From positions 1-18,540 of the forward strand of contig JAITHO010000020.1 of NCBI GenBank assembly GCA_031279915.1: a stretch of DNA of 18,540 nucleotides. The letters run 5' to 3'. Below are positions 43-16,326 of this stretch, piece by piece. Origin of the DNA: Tannerellaceae bacterium. Its GTDB lineage: Bacteria > Bacteroidota > Bacteroidia > Bacteroidales > Tannerellaceae. How positions within the stretch are numbered: the stretch's first letter is position 1; each line of letters starts with the position of its first letter. Under the pieces are notes generated by a model. That model had not been told where the DNA came from. It did not search any database and saw nothing but the letters and a program-made list of their open reading frames with translations. The position numbers and the translations under genes were made by a program.

Positions 43-71
43 TGCTCGTAAAATTTTAAATCTTGATTATT

Positions 72-1115
72 ATGAAAGCTTCATCCTGTTTGATGTTTAT
101 TTGTTTATTCTGCGCCGTCTTAATGGCGGCTTGCAGCTCGTCGCCTTTGCAAACGCAGGCGACGGGAACTCCTTACGAAATCGTTGTGTCGGTTAATCGG
201 GCCGAATGGGAGGGCGAAATGGGCCGTCTCATCAGGGCTGATCTCGAATCGGATATCCCAATGCTGCCTCAGCCGGAGCCTGCATTCAGAGTTATGTTTG
301 CCGATTCTGGTCGGTTTGGGACGCTATTGAAACATGTTCGGAATGTTTTTATTATCAATATAGATCCCACGATGTTCACGCAGATGGCTTTGCAGTATGA
401 GCGCGATGCATGGGCTAAGGGGCAGATGACGCTCAAGATGAACGCTCCCGATCGTCAGAGCGTGATGGATTTTTTCAGCAAGGATAGCAGGAAGATTTCG
501 AAGTTCTTCTCTATGGTTGAGATGAATCGAGCGACGCTGCTGCTGGGATTGGCTCCGGGTACTGCTCCTATGGATAGCCTTTCGCGACTCTTCAACATTA
601 AGCTTTGCCTTCCGTATGAGATGAAGGCAACGGGAAGAGGGAAAGGGAAGGACTTTTTCTGGGTGTCGGATGATGGAAAGAAAGGGCGGTCGGACGTCAT
701 CGTTTATACATTTCCGTATACTGATACTAATACTTTCACGATGGAGTATCTGATGGCTAAGCGAGATTCGGTGTTGCAAATCAATCTGCCGGGCGGCAGG
801 CCGGATTCGTATATGACTACCGAAAAAATGATTGAGCCGGAGTATGAGGCGATCGCTCTGCGCGGTAAGTATTGCGGACTGATGCGGGGGCTATGGAGGA
901 TGGTTGGCGATGCAATGGGAGGACCATTCGTGAGTGTAGCTAGGCTGGATTCGGCTAACAATCGAGTGATTGTAGCCGAAGGCTTCGTTTATGCGCCCGA
1001 AACTCATAAGCGCAACTTTATCCGCAAGCTCGAGGCTGCCCTCTACACATTGCGCCTCCCCGATGAGCTTGACCTGCCTGTTGAGGAACCATACAAGGAC
1101 ATTAGTAAATTGTAA
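72..1115 (+). CDS. DUF4837 family lipoprotein
   Basis: A 347-residue predicted outer-membrane or periplasmic lipoprotein. The N-terminus has a short hydrophobic signal (residues 7-20) ending in LMAAC, with Cys21 as the lipidated residue. The mature part lacks further membrane segments and resembles the Bacteroidetes-specific DUF4837 family, for which I know no biochemical function. The ATG at 72 was chosen over an in-frame TTG at 63: it gives a standard lysine-initiated signal peptide and sits about 23 nt after the predicted transcription start. It is the first gene of a four-gene operon, and pdxA begins 5 nt after its stop. The family assignment rests on overall sequence resemblance, not on a catalytic motif. 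Confidence 0.8.
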   Translation: MKASSCLMFICLFCAVLMAACSSSPLQTQATGTPYEIVVSVNRAEWEGEMGRLIRADLESDIPMLPQPEPAFRVMFADSGRFGTLLKHVRNVFIINIDPTMFTQMALQYERDAWAKGQMTLKMNAPDRQSVMDFFSKDSRKISKFFSMVEMNRATLLLGLAPGTAPMDSLSRLFNIKLCLPYEMKATGRGKGKDFFWVSDDGKKGRSDVIVYTFPYTDTNTFTMEYLMAKRDSVLQINLPGGRPDSYMTTEKMIEPEYEAIALRGKYCGLMRGLWRMVGDAMGGPFVSVARLDSANNRVIVAEGFVYAPETHKRNFIRKLEAALYTLRLPDELDLPVEEPYKDISKL

Positions 1116-1120
1116 TAATA

Positions 1121-2233
1121 ATGGACGATAATAATTTGAAGATAGGATTTACGCACGGCGATATTAACGGCATCGGATACGAGTTAATCCTGAAAGCCTT
1201 CGCCGACGCGCGTTTGATGGAGCTATGCACGCCGGTTGTGTACGGATCATCCAAGATTGCGGCATATCACCGCAAGGCGCTTGAGATTCCTGCGCTCAAC
1301 ATGAGTAACATCAGCCAGGCTGAGGACGCTGCAAGTAATCGCGTTAACATGATTAATTGCATAAGCGATGAGATAAAGGTGGAGCTCTCCAAGCCTTCCT
1401 ATATCGCCGCCGAAGCTGCTGTGCGTTCGCTGGAGGCTGCTGTGGATGATTTGAAGCGTGGAGCTACACATGCGCTGGTGACAAGTCCGGTAAGCAGTCG
1501 AATAACAGGCGACGGACTTTATCCGAAGCATACTGAATACCTAGGGCAGCGCCTCAAAGCCGGAACTAAGCCTATGACTATACTTGTGTCGGATGCAATG
1601 AAAGTGGCGCTGCTTAGCGAATCTATTCCGCTCTCGGATGTGTTCTTGCATGTTAGTCTGACTAATGTGCTTGACAGATTGCTGCTGTTTGAGAAATCTC
1701 TCCAGCAAGACTTCCGGATTGTCAAGCCGCGCATCGCTGTATTATCCTTCAACCCTAAGTCGGGGCGCGGAGTGAAAGACAGCGAAGAGCAGGCGGTTTT
1801 GATGCCCGCTATTGAGGAAGCTACCAAGCGAAACCTCCTCTGCTTCGGCCCATATTCGGCAGATACTCTTTTCGGATCGAACATGTATGAGAAATTCGAT
1901 GGCATAATGGCTATGTACTATGAGCAGGGAATGACCGCCTTCAAAACTATCGGACTCGACCGAGGAATTGCCTACACTGCCGGACTATCCGCCGTGCATA
2001 CTACTCCTGCTCATGGAGCCGCATACGATATCGCCGGACGCAATTTGGCCTCCATTGACTCTTTCTTGAAAGCTATTTATACTGCAATCGACATTTATCG
2101 AAACCGAATAAGCTTCATTGAAGCTACGGCCAACCCCTTGCGCAAACAATACTTCGACAAAGGAGCCGGCGATGAGAGCGTTGACCTAACAAAAGATGAT
2201 GACGATGGCATATTAATCAACACAAACGCATAA
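1121..2233 (+). CDS. pdxA: PdxA-like protein (4-hydroxythreonine-4-phosphate dehydrogenase family) with degenerate active site
   Basis: 370 residues, homologous along its length to PdxA, which oxidises 4-phosphohydroxy-L-threonine with NAD in the DXP-dependent vitamin B6 pathway. Family landmarks are THGDINGIGYE (11-21), VTSP (120-123), KHTEYLG (136-142), HVSL (177-180), GPYSADTLF (243-251) and AHGAAYDIAG (297-306). Against E. coli PdxA recalled from memory, the metal ligand His166 is kept (H177), but His211 is K213 (NPKSG instead of NPHAG) and His266 is Y267 (MYYEQG instead of MYHDQG). Lys123 is S126, Asn283 is A284 and Arg292 is H293, while His136, Thr137 and Lys274 are kept (H137, T138, K275). 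The reading frame is intact, so this looks like a repurposed or inactive paralogue rather than a decaying gene. The symbol marks family only. It lies 5 nt after the DUF4837 gene and 7 nt before the OPT gene. Confidence 0.85.
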   Translation: MDDNNLKIGFTHGDINGIGYELILKAFADARLMELCTPVVYGSSKIAAYHRKALEIPALNMSNISQAEDAASNRVNMINCISDEIKVELSKPSYIAAEAAVRSLEAAVDDLKRGATHALVTSPVSSRITGDGLYPKHTEYLGQRLKAGTKPMTILVSDAMKVALLSESIPLSDVFLHVSLTNVLDRLLLFEKSLQQDFRIVKPRIAVLSFNPKSGRGVKDSEEQAVLMPAIEEATKRNLLCFGPYSADTLFGSNMYEKFDGIMAMYYEQGMTAFKTIGLDRGIAYTAGLSAVHTTPAHGAAYDIAGRNLASIDSFLKAIYTAIDIYRNRISFIEATANPLRKQYFDKGAGDESVDLTKDDDDGILINTNA

Positions 2234-2240
2234 TATTTTT

Positions 2241-4262
2241 ATGGAAGACAAGAAGAAAACAACCCCCTTCGTATCCGGTCAAACTAGCATGAAAGAGTTC
2301 ACGCTCCGAGCTCTGCTTACCGGATTGCTCCTGGCTATTGTGCTGGGAGCTGCAAATGCTTATCTGGGATTAAAAGCGGGAATGACCATTGCCGCTACTT
2401 ATCCGGCTGCCGTAATTGGCATGGCTGTTCTGAGATTCTTTAAGGGAAGTATTCTCGAAGAGAATTTTACGCGAACCGTGGGCTCCATCGGCGAATCTGT
2501 TGCCGCAGGAGCCATCTTCACTCTGCCGGCTTTCTATATCGCCGGAATATGGACTGATTCATTCAACTCCTTGAGCTCATACCTTACCGCATCGCTGATT
2601 TTACTTGCCGGCGGAACCCTGGGCATTCTTTTCGTAGCTCTACTCAGGAGAGTGATGGTTGAAGATCGTGACTTGCCTTTCCCTGAAAGCCTCGCCGCTG
2701 CGGAGATTCATAAAACCGGACAAAGCGGATCGGGAGGCTCCAAATATCTGTTCTCGGCCATGATCGTCGGAGCTTTGATTCAACTCGGAGGAGCTCTCCG
2801 ACTTTACGCTACCGAATGGGCTGCATTTTTCAAAACTACAACGGCTAAGTTTGCCGGAGGAAAAGCTATTGAAGGTGGATTCCTCGCTGCTGGCCCGGCA
2901 ATCGCTCCTGCTTATTTCGGCGTTGGATACATCATCGGACCGCGACTGGCAGCGCTCAACTTCAGTGGATCAGTGATGGCATGGGGCCTCATGGTGCCTG
3001 TCTTACTCATGATGCTCGGAGCGGGATTCGTCGACGCTTTGCCTGCTAATATAGCTAACGGACTCACCGCCGCTTCCTCTGATGCCTGGACGCATGCCGC
3101 CGACGTGGTATGGAAACAGATCGTTCGCATGGTAGCTATCGGAGGTATGCTGGTAGCCGCCTGCTTCACATTATATCGTATGCGTGAGAACCTCACTGCC
3201 GGATTGCGACGATCGGTTAAAGATTTAAAGCGAGCAACCCAAAGCGGCGGCGATAACGTTGAGCGAACTGAGAAGGACTTGCCCACAGTATGGGTACTCG
3301 TCGGAATAGGCGCCGCAGCTGCTCTCACCTTCGCCGTTACCTTCTTTATCTTCCACACATCCGTATTCGTGGCAATCATCGCATCCACCGTCATGGTCGT
3401 ACTTGCATTCTTCTTTGCCGCAGTATCAGGATACCTCGTAGGATTGATCGGCTCCAGCAACAACCCGATTAGCGGACTAACATTAACCGCGCTGGTAGTT
3501 ACAGCCCTCATCCTCGTTGCATGCGGCGTGAACGCCAATACAGGAGGCGTAGCTGCCGTACTCGGAGTAGCAGCCATAGTTTGCGTTGCAGCCGCCGTTG
3601 CCGGAGAAATGTTCCAAGACTTAAAGGCTGGACACCTGCTCGGCGGAACCCCATGGAAGATGCAAACCGGCGATCTCATTGGGGTACTCCTATCCGCCTT
3701 CGTCATGTTCGGAGTCCTCATCATTCTGAACCAAGGTGACATCAACGCCGGTAATGCCAACAATTACAGCGGCGGATTCGGAAGCAAAAACCTCCCAGCC
3801 CCACAAGCCGCCCTGATGGCCACTCTATCGCAAGGAATCATAGGCGGAGAAATGACATGGGGATTAATCATCGCAGGAATGATCCTCGGATTTGCTTTCA
3901 TCCTCGCAGGAATCAAAAGCCCAATGCTCATATTCGTCGGAATGTATCTACCCTTCAACACCGTTTGCGCAATATTCGTGGGCGGACTAATCAAAGGCAT
4001 TCTCGATATCTACGTGGCGCGACGAAAATACCAAGGCGCACAGCTGGCTGCCGTTGAAAATACCGGCGTACTCATCGCATCCGGACTGATAGCCGGCGAG
4101 GCGCTCCTCGGACTAGTCTCGGCCACGCTCGCAATGTTCGATAAGTACATGCACAAGATTCTAAACATATCGAATCCATCCTACATCCCAGGCATACTTA
4201 TCATGGCGCTCATGGCATACTTCCTGGTCAGCATACCGCTTAAAAAGGGAAAAACCGAATGA
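2241..4262 (+). CDS. OPT-family oligopeptide transporter
   Basis: A 673-residue polytopic inner-membrane protein with roughly 14-16 hydrophobic segments from residue 20 to the C-terminus. It fits the oligopeptide transporter (OPT) superfamily, whose members move small peptides or metal chelates by secondary transport. Visible family marks are NAYLGLKAGMT (39-49), the NPISG motif (408-412) after a GLIGSS turn, PWKMQTGDLIG (471-481) and SGLIAGEALLG (614-624). A charged cytoplasmic loop rich in Lys, Arg and Glu lies at about 313-347. The length is normal for bacterial OPT proteins. The substrate cannot be read from sequence. The stop codon TGA overlaps the ATG of the PqqD-domain gene (ATGA), implying translational coupling. 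Confidence 0.9.
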   Translation: MEDKKKTTPFVSGQTSMKEFTLRALLTGLLLAIVLGAANAYLGLKAGMTIAATYPAAVIGMAVLRFFKGSILEENFTRTVGSIGESVAAGAIFTLPAFYIAGIWTDSFNSLSSYLTASLILLAGGTLGILFVALLRRVMVEDRDLPFPESLAAAEIHKTGQSGSGGSKYLFSAMIVGALIQLGGALRLYATEWAAFFKTTTAKFAGGKAIEGGFLAAGPAIAPAYFGVGYIIGPRLAALNFSGSVMAWGLMVPVLLMMLGAGFVDALPANIANGLTAASSDAWTHAADVVWKQIVRMVAIGGMLVAACFTLYRMRENLTAGLRRSVKDLKRATQSGGDNVERTEKDLPTVWVLVGIGAAAALTFAVTFFIFHTSVFVAIIASTVMVVLAFFFAAVSGYLVGLIGSSNNPISGLTLTALVVTALILVACGVNANTGGVAAVLGVAAIVCVAAAVAGEMFQDLKAGHLLGGTPWKMQTGDLIGVLLSAFVMFGVLIILNQGDINAGNANNYSGGFGSKNLPAPQAALMATLSQGIIGGEMTWGLIIAGMILGFAFILAGIKSPMLIFVGMYLPFNTVCAIFVGGLIKGILDIYVARRKYQGAQLAAVENTGVLIASGLIAGEALLGLVSATLAMFDKYMHKILNISNPSYIPGILIMALMAYFLVSIPLKKGKTE

Positions 4263-4612
4263 AACAACCCGGATTGCTCGATCAATTGTACCTATTCCCG
4301 CAGATAGCCCCACACGTACAAACCGAAACCATGGGAAACCGATGCATAATCGTATTCCCACGGTTTCGCAACAAGTGGATGCAGAAATACCTTGTTCCGC
4401 GCAATCGATCGCCACTTATTCGCGTGAGGCTCGACGATCACGGCTCGGCCGTTTGGCAAAAAATCGACGGACGCCGAACCGTTTACGACATCGTCGAATC
4501 TCTCGCCTCGCACTTCGATGGAGATGATAAATACGAGCTGCAAATCTCCATTTTCATCAATCACTTACGGCAAGAAGGCTACATACGGATGCTCAGCGAA
4601 CCCGCTCCATAA
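4259..4612 (+). CDS. PqqD-domain protein (RRE-like winged helix), orphan
   Basis: 117 residues, soluble, no signal peptide. The central part (about 50-112) matches the PqqD family: VRLDDHGSAVWQ (56-67), IDGRRTVYDIVESLASHF (69-86) and a final helix IFINHLRQEGYIRM (98-111). PqqD proteins form a small winged-helix RiPP recognition element that binds a precursor peptide and presents it to a radical SAM enzyme. No radical SAM enzyme or precursor peptide gene is recognisable here, so the partner is unknown. The start overlaps the stop of the OPT gene by 4 nt, so the two are almost certainly co-translated, which suggests a role linked to the transported peptide or to the transporter itself (inference). 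It is the last gene of the operon. Confidence 0.8.
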   Translation: MKQPGLLDQLYLFPQIAPHVQTETMGNRCIIVFPRFRNKWMQKYLVPRNRSPLIRVRLDDHGSAVWQKIDGRRTVYDIVESLASHFDGDDKYELQISIFINHLRQEGYIRMLSEPAP

Positions 4613-4784
4613 CTCTCGCCACGACTTTTATCCGTTGATAATGAAGCCTGAAATAAGCGCAAAAAATCTCGTTCTCGAATATTAAAACATTTTTTTGTAG
4701 CCGAAAAAATATTTTTCCGAGATATCAATATCATGAAGCGGTCAAAAAAAATGCTGTGCGAGAAAAACACTCGTTTTTTGGGCC

Positions 4785-4837
4785 AAAAATTTGCTGGACG
4801 CCGATAAGACTATTTATTTCCGTCCAGCAATTTTTTT
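4785..4837 (+). terminator. Hairpin with T-run inside the 41-bp array, possible terminator of the pqqD operon
   Basis: TTGCTGGACG (4791-4800) pairs with CGTCCAGCAA (4821-4830) across a 20-nt loop and is followed by seven T (4831-4837). A-rich sequence precedes the stem, so the structure could also stop transcription from the other side. It lies 180 nt after the PqqD stop codon, and nothing closer looks like a terminator. The long loop is not typical, so the role is tentative. Confidence 0.4.
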
Positions 4838-4868
4838 GGCGAAAAAAACACTTGTTTTTTCTTCCCTG

Positions 4869-4914
4869 CAAATGCTGGATGGAAATAACGTTTGATTTTT
4901 CCATCCAGCATTTG
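4869..4914. repeat. 17-bp inverted repeat within the array (GGATGG arm type)
   Basis: The arm at 4869-4885 (core TGCTGGATGGAAA) pairs perfectly over 17 bp with 4898-4914 (core TTTCCATCCAGCA), leaving a 12-nt loop. A second copy of the right arm lies at 4938-4954. It is the strongest hairpin in the array. Confidence 0.8.
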
Positions 4915-4927
4915 ATTTTGGGAAAAA

Positions 4928-4978
4928 AACAAGTGTGTTTTCCATCCAGCATTTTTTTTGAAGGAAAAAACACTTGTT
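4928..4978. repeat. 16-bp inverted repeat within the array (AACAAGTG arm type)
   Basis: AACAAGTGTGTTTTCC (4928-4943) pairs with GGAAAAAACACTTGTT (4963-4978) at 15 of 16 positions across a 19-nt loop. The left arm is an inverted copy of the A-run/CACTTG part of the other units, so one unit carries this section in reverse orientation. Confidence 0.7.
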
Positions 4979-5158
4979 ATCGGCGTCCAGCAGATTTTGG
5001 ACGAAAAAAACACTTTTTGCCGGCTTTCAGCAGATTTTTTTTCGAGAAATAAACGTCGTTTTAATTTTCGCAAATGTTTTATCTCCAAAAAAAATATTTA
5101 TTCATACCGAAAAAAAATATGCTGAAAGCGAAATACACTGTTACATGGACTCAAAAAG

Positions 5159-5198
5159 TTGCTGGACGCCAAATCACTCTTTAAATGGCGTCCAGCAA
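5159..5198. repeat. 13-bp inverted repeat within the array (GGACGCC arm type)
   Basis: TTGCTGGACGCCA (5159-5171) pairs perfectly with TGGCGTCCAGCAA (5186-5198) across a 14-nt loop. It repeats the arm type of the 4791-4830 hairpin about 370 bp away. Confidence 0.75.
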
Positions 5199-5427
5199 AT
5201 GTTGGACGAGAAATAAATGTTTAAATGGGATTCGGCAATTATTTTCTCGGAAAATAAATCGTTGTATTTATTTCGGCAAAAAATCTTTGAGGAAGATGAT
5301 AGTTATTTTCGGTACGGAACAAATCATGAGGGCGGATTTGTGTTGCAATGGCAATGAACCGCTTGAGGGGCATAAACGGCAAATAAAAATCCCGTGCCGG
5401 ATATTGGGCAGCAATGATTATAGGATT

Positions 5428-16221: not shown

Positions 16222-16326
16222 AAGGGCTAAATTTCTATGCGCATGCGCGTAAATTTCCATGCGCATGGAAATAAATTTCTGTCCGCATGGAAATTTTTTT
16301 TCTCCCGCATGGAAATTTTTGCGCAT
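16217..16326. repeat. 22-bp tandem repeat, five units
   Basis: Units begin at 16217, 16239, 16261, 16283 and 16305, each 22 bp. The pattern is GCGCATG or CCGCATG, then GAAAT or CGCGT, then AAATTT or T-rich sequence ending in CTGT, CCAT or CTC. The first unit (in GCGACAAGGGCTAAATTT) is the most divergent. Pieces of inverted symmetry occur, such as TTTCCATGCGCATGGAAA at 16254-16271, a perfect 18-bp palindrome across a unit junction. Reading frames through it are low-complexity and not credible as genes. Confidence 0.8.

Follow-up and report, generated by a model that had tools for sequence, protein, structure and literature searches.

A PdxA homologue retained without its metal site in a Tannerellaceae bacterium, and the recurrence of this change in Bacteroidales

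The window, i.e. the whole stretch of DNA analysed (18,540 nucleotides), is a single contig of an approximately 61%-complete (60.75%) Tannerellaceae genome, labelled G000, and contains a pdxA homologue that has been retained despite the loss of its metal site (Table 1). The recurrence of this change in relatives that lack the rest of this vitamin B6 pathway suggests a second job for the protein. From the sequence comparisons described below, we consider it rather probable (about 60%) that this PdxA no longer works as a metal-dependent 4-phosphohydroxythreonine dehydrogenase and has been kept for a second function that was already present in PdxA of Bacteroidales. The earlier note on this DNA treated the gene as a single odd protein; it is instead one case of a change recurring across the order.

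Table 1. Positions in the window of the pdxA homologue, its upstream neighbour, and the segments and residues discussed
Feature	Position	Strand	Remarks
DUF4837 protein	63..1115	+	directly upstream of pdxA, 5-nt gap
pdxA homologue	1121..2233	+	370 aa, ATG start; intact frame, metal triad lost
N-terminal segment, residues 9-52, GDxNGxxYExxxK and YGSxKxxxYxRK	1145..1276	+	shared by intact and degenerate PdxA of Bacteroidales
S126 at E. coli K123 position	1496..1498	+	alignment
S168 at E. coli H166 metal ligand	1622..1624	+	alignment
K213 at E. coli H211 metal ligand	1757..1759	+	alignment
Y267 at E. coli H266 metal ligand	1919..1921	+	alignment
A284 at E. coli N283 position	1970..1972	+	alignment
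H293 at E. coli R292 position	1997..1999	+	alignment
C-terminal tail, residues 338-358, NPLRKQYFDKG..DE..DLTKDD	2132..2194	+	extends past the E. coli C-terminus

The pdxA homologue and its active site

The frame is open throughout, as the earlier note had claimed, and in profile searches the similarity to PdxA spans nearly the full length of the protein. PF04166 (PdxA family) was matched over its entire profile (1-286) with 262 bits (cut-off 27), and the protein has the fold of the solved PdxA structures. It differs from E. coli PdxA in its extra C-terminal tail and in scoring below the cut-off of TIGR00557, the NCBIfam equivalog for PdxA (246.9 bits, cut-off 290.35), which was passed by the three canonical proteins scanned (368-373 bits) and also by the degenerate forms of two relatives (310 bits in G007 and 301 bits in G016). 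The superfamily and fold are shared with D-threonate 4-phosphate dehydrogenase (6E85) and terephthalate dihydrodiol dehydrogenase (4ATY, 8ZHY), but the window protein reached only 120.5 bits with PRK03371, the NCBIfam profile for the former enzyme (cut-off 583), and clusters with PdxA of its own family. A canonical PdxA elsewhere in the same genome was considered and rejected, the gene in the window being the single match in the sequenced part of this 60.75%-complete genome.

E. coli PdxA, as read from NC_000913.3, served as the alignment reference. We take the catalytic roles of its positions from the published structure, i.e. H166, H211, and H266 as presumed metal ligands and H136, T137, K274, N283, and R292 as presumed substrate residues. 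Compared with PdxA (4-hydroxythreonine-4-phosphate dehydrogenase; TIGR00557; E. coli structures 1PS6 and 1PTM), the window protein has all three ligands replaced (S/K/Y vs. H/H/H in E. coli), together with two of the five substrate residues (N283 and R292). The alignment bears out the replacements named in the earlier note (S126, K213, Y267, A284, and H293), as well as the retention of H137, T138, and K275, which correspond to E. coli H136, T137, and K274. That note counted two of the three ligands as lost, which holds for the H211 and H266 positions, but H166 is also gone. The residue that it took for the surviving ligand, H177, was wrongly assigned: H166 aligns with S168, in the context LLSESIPL vs. 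e.g. LVTGHIPL in canonical relatives, and H177 was rejected as a metal ligand, its column being Ala in E. coli and mostly T, A, S, K, L, or Q in intact relatives. Other histidines aligned at the metal positions, which the note had named as a finding that would count against its reading, were looked for, and none was found at the three positions.

Vitamin B6 genes and the repeated origin of degenerate PdxA

The B6 route in question runs PdxB-SerC-PdxA-PdxJ. No pdxJ, PdxB, or PdxS was found in the window genome, and PdxH gave a weak match alone (24 bits, cut-off 180); because this genome is incomplete, its lack of pdxJ by itself proves little. In the sister genome (G017, 83% complete), pdxJ was likewise not found. 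Among 60 relatives including the window genome, several of which, from its own family (f1), are metagenome assemblies, presumably from termite and cockroach guts, PdxA was read in 58 and pdxJ was present in 39. All 39 pdxJ-bearing relatives are identical to E. coli at all eight active-site residues, which argues that the loss of the site is not due to chance. The 21 pdxJ-less relatives comprise 18 with a broken triad, all changed at H166, one that is intact (G044, 88% complete), and two in which no PdxA was found (G001 and G008, 86 and 58% complete, respectively). The association of pdxJ with the state of the triad has a Fisher p of 4e-14 in the 58 genomes with PdxA, uncorrected for kinship. 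PdxS was above the cut-off in 15 of the 60 genomes, i.e. in 14 pdxJ-less genomes and in G010, an apparent intermediate in which PdxS stands beside pdxJ and an intact PdxA. A degenerate PdxA is also encoded in a named sequence of the cultured Parabacteroides sp. PH5-46 (L074).

These data bear on the possibility that the window protein is a working PdxA that serves vitamin B6 synthesis through other metal ligands. The family match and the overall fold speak for it, but the three ligand positions hold no histidine, and pdxJ, which is needed to use the product, was found neither in the window genome nor in the other 17 broken-triad relatives, 12 of which have PdxS; we regard this reading as extremely improbable. 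The suggestion in the earlier note of a pseudoenzyme or a changed activity gains support from the failure to find pdxJ in the window genome or its nearest degenerate relatives, and is strengthened by the presence of PdxS in many degenerate relatives and by replacements that differ between lineages.

PdxB with the R/E/H triad, at positions that we assume for it, was found in six pdxJ-less relatives (G002, G004, G005, G009, G011, and G017; loci L200-L205). These proteins are 54-73% identical within the group and 38-45% identical to PdxB of the six intact relatives fetched, which share 54-80% identity among themselves. The possibility that PdxB is a relic was considered; these proteins look like a different PdxB lineage standing beside degenerate PdxA.

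In an order sample of 393 Bacteroidales genomes, each at least 95% complete except the window genome, a PdxA homologue was present in 389, a pdxJ match in 340, and PdxS above the cut-off in 30. Besides the window genome, 52 genomes lack pdxJ, and 51 of these retain PdxA, in 49 cases as a frame of 329-400 aa; no PdxA was found in the remaining one (G255). The triad is changed in 34 of them, other sites are changed in 12, two proteins are eroded, and three, against the pattern, retain all eight sites (G163, G370, and G398). The eroded frames, which are still open (L198 in G114 and L199 in G280), come from genomes of 1.0-1.2 Mb that are 99% complete. PdxS was found in 28 of the 52, and the remaining 24, with neither pdxJ nor PdxS, all retain PdxA. 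Two further genomes have PdxS, a degenerate PdxA, and weak pdxJ matches only (G164, E 1.3e-4; G308, E 2.3e-13). G256 (L186) is an exception in having a good pdxJ match and yet a degenerate PdxA, like that of pdxJ-less neighbours of the same genus, and in three pdxJ-bearing genomes (G235, G263, and G356) no PdxA was found. In this sample, PdxA of most pdxJ-bearing genomes was judged by its score; the genomes read residue by residue were those common to the 60 relatives together with G164, G308, G256, G076, G088, G226, G271, and G383, the last five of which have an intact PdxA, and G291, whose PdxA is a fragment at a contig end with its four covered sites intact.

In a phylum sample of 218 genomes, pdxJ was missing in four besides the window genome. 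In two of these, from one family (G593 and G637), neither PdxA nor pdxJ was found, and the other two (G476 and G548) have a PdxA that is high-scoring, as judged by score. Outside Bacteroidales, the metal triad is intact in 20 of 20 proteins read, which were picked among the better-scoring ones, and three of them have Q at H136. Retention after pathway loss is not the rule everywhere; it is a Bacteroidales feature in the samples studied.

A tree of 112 PdxA proteins was built by a quick method and has long branches; L057, L146, L194, L198, L199, the E. coli sequence, and the named loci L066-L145 were omitted, and its pdxJ count excludes G164, G308, and G291. In f2, f5, f19, f49, and f53, broken forms group with members of the same family whose triad is intact (support 94-100), and they also sit inside f1, the family of the window protein. 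On the best tree, computed without the eight site columns, the minimum numbers of changes, gains and losses not being distinguished, are 15 for the triad, 14 for the presence of pdxJ, and 11 for Y267. The placement of f79 inside f1 and that of f4, f90, and f100 together on long branches are not trusted. We rejected the ideas that the broken form spread horizontally or arose only once, given the mostly own-family grouping and the rejection of one clade of all broken forms (p 2.5e-5). In an independent-pairs test, nearly all draws went in the expected direction, with approximately five informative pairs agreeing and none disagreeing in the median draw (p 0.0625, an underpowered test). Judging from the tree, degenerate PdxA is vertical and repeated.

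Selection, retained segments, and gene neighbourhood

The window protein and its counterpart in the sister genome (G017) are 82% identical, with a dN of 0.114, a dS of 1.30, and a dN/dS of 0.088. Among the degenerate pairs listed that have a finite dS, dN/dS ranges from 0.03 to 0.21, some pairs repeating one genome and five having no finite dS. The degenerate set for dN/dS and entropy was defined by the triad alone, so that proteins changed only at other sites were counted as intact. The entropy comparison covered 52 unique degenerate and 125 unique triad-intact proteins, with eroded or partial proteins (L194, L198, and L199), second copies that belong to another PdxA type by motif (L057 and L146), and duplicates omitted. 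From intact to degenerate proteins, the active-site segments relax, with entropy rising from 1.12 to 2.68 bits in residues 121-135, from 0.96 to 2.24 bits in residues 211-225, and from 0.50 to 1.84 bits in residues 286-300, and residues 1-60 show small rises of 0.09-0.36 bits per 15-residue block. Averaged over residues 1-90, entropy rises by 0.19 bits, and over residues 91-330 by 0.75 bits (p 1e-9); when only the columns that intact proteins conserve are considered, the averages are 0.31 and 1.09 bits (p 1e-4).

Within the N-terminal segment, D14, N16, E21, K25, G42, and S43 are common among the Bacteroidota proteins read and different in E. coli. Y20 is present in the seven Bacteroidales proteins compared, whereas the 19 other Bacteroidota proteins alignable there all lack it, and Y41, K45, and K52 are commoner inside Bacteroidales than outside. 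The C-terminal tail occurs in most f1 members and some others, intact and degenerate alike; since it is absent or different in e.g. f2 and f19, it is not needed everywhere.

That PdxA, useless after the loss of pdxJ, is a slowly dying relic drifting towards a pseudogene is quite improbable in light of these data. The site changes resemble drift, the two genomes of 1.0-1.2 Mb carry eroded forms, and decay of pdxA along with its pathway is reported in a paper on Blochmannia obliquus, which lost pdxA, pdxB, pdxH, and pdxJ and retains pseudogenes of three of them (PMC4389277). However, the gene persists, mostly at full length, in nearly all pdxJ-less genomes of the order sample, and also in broken lineages on long branches of the tree; dN/dS is low and N-terminal conservation is nearly unchanged.

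The OPT transporter gene starts 7 nt downstream of pdxA. The DUF4837 gene lies directly upstream of pdxA in 31 of the 34 f1 genomes with PdxA, both intact and degenerate, with gaps of -11 to 39 nt, which makes its product a candidate partner of PdxA in f1; in several other families, blastp of the stretch fetched did not detect DUF4837 beside pdxA. This tight linkage, together with lipid genes downstream in many relatives, would also fit a gene that is kept for its translation or its operon position, driving neighbours (DUF4837, RlmN, and lipid head-group genes), rather than for its protein. Such an explanation is very improbable, as purifying selection acts at the protein level and for several families with degenerate PdxA, blastp of the fetched stretch revealed no such neighbour, a search that distant homologues could escape.

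The lipid genes downstream of pdxA (L066, 7198-10133; L102, 7189-9973; and many relatives) are CDP-alcohol head-group genes of two different sets, one with a cytidylyltransferase-like protein, an SDR, a CDP-alcohol phosphotransferase, and a GlsA-like acyltransferase and the other with an NTP transferase, a RimK-like protein, and a CDP-alcohol phosphotransferase. The eroded PdxA of L199 is still upstream of such genes. In the window, a PqqD-like protein (PF05402) is encoded behind the OPT transporter gene (4259-4612), and no other PQQ gene was found among the nine window proteins scanned. An AT-rich intergenic stretch with many inverted pairs follows (4740-5300), including a 40-41 nt unit repeated quasi-tandemly six times, with the cores GTCCAGCA and AAAACACTTGTT (4792-5034), and short 22-nt tandem repeats with palindromes surround GCATGGAAATAAATTTC at 16228-16326.

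Function and meaning of the retained protein

A new, metal-free activity on a different phosphorylated substrate (oxidation, decarboxylation, or other), with Y267, K213, and K275 as catalytic residues, is unlikely in our judgement. It would agree with the retention of K275, H137, and T138 in a frame under purifying selection and with the existence of PdxA relatives named for other substrates, such as the two dehydrogenases mentioned above; moreover, tyrosine at the third ligand, present in 31 of the 52 unique full-length degenerate proteins and with its 11 changes on the tree, looks selected. However, those relatives presumably keep the metal, the other positions have no common replacement (H166 gives way to A, D, K, N, P, T, S, V, E, C, or M, and 36 of the 52 lack H211), and the strongest relaxation falls in the catalytic segments. 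A single new activity would leave one new set of residues, and only Y267 comes near to that, so that a non-catalytic role is preferred; replacements differing by lineage are likewise more in keeping with lost PdxA chemistry than with a single new one.

Gene presence and alignments would place the loss of PdxA activity in the following course of events. Ancestors would have made B6 via PdxB-SerC-PdxA-PdxJ, and lineages that gained PdxS, or used B6 from outside, would then have lost pdxJ. With pdxJ gone, the PdxA product would be without known use, so that the metal and substrate residues would have drifted variously and the sites decayed lineage by lineage. The rest of the protein, according to the selection measured, has stayed under purifying selection, most of all at the edge that the N-terminal residues 1-90 form in domain 1, with its motifs GDxNGxxYE and YGSxK...RK, and in f1 at the C-terminal tail as well. 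This edge, probably in a dimer, may bind a partner protein or a nucleotide-like ligand. A non-catalytic binding role of this kind, we infer, would explain the data with the fewest assumptions; alternatively, the conserved edge could serve folding only. One study of Porphyromonas gingivalis counts pdxA among the genes essential in vitro (PMC3547785).

Like pseudoenzymes in general (reviewed in PMC10211241), the window protein keeps its fold and remains under selection while losing catalytic residues; unlike them, the PdxA change recurs in place, in a mostly single-copy gene, and with the next enzyme lost. Among the literature matches listed, which cover few subscription journals, there was no report of catalytic decay in a retained PdxA. 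In a vitamin reconstruction of gut genomes, PdxA is bracketed in the PdxJ route, which we read as optional, and the part of the text available describes no decay (PMC6593275).

A broader proposal, which the sequence data leave evenly poised, is that PdxA may be a two-function protein throughout Bacteroidales, with a probably important non-catalytic N-terminal role that would predate the pdxJ losses; whenever the DXP-dependent B6 route was dropped, only the catalytic half would have decayed, and repeatedly so. PdxA homologues, which nearly all genomes of the order sample contain, carry the annotation of a B6 enzyme, and if many are inactive, B6 predictions based on PdxA only are wrong. That the catalytic site has gone while the gene has stayed, as many times over as the triad changes on the best tree, points to a further function in this dominant gut order, and pairs of intact and broken genomes indicate the residues of interest.
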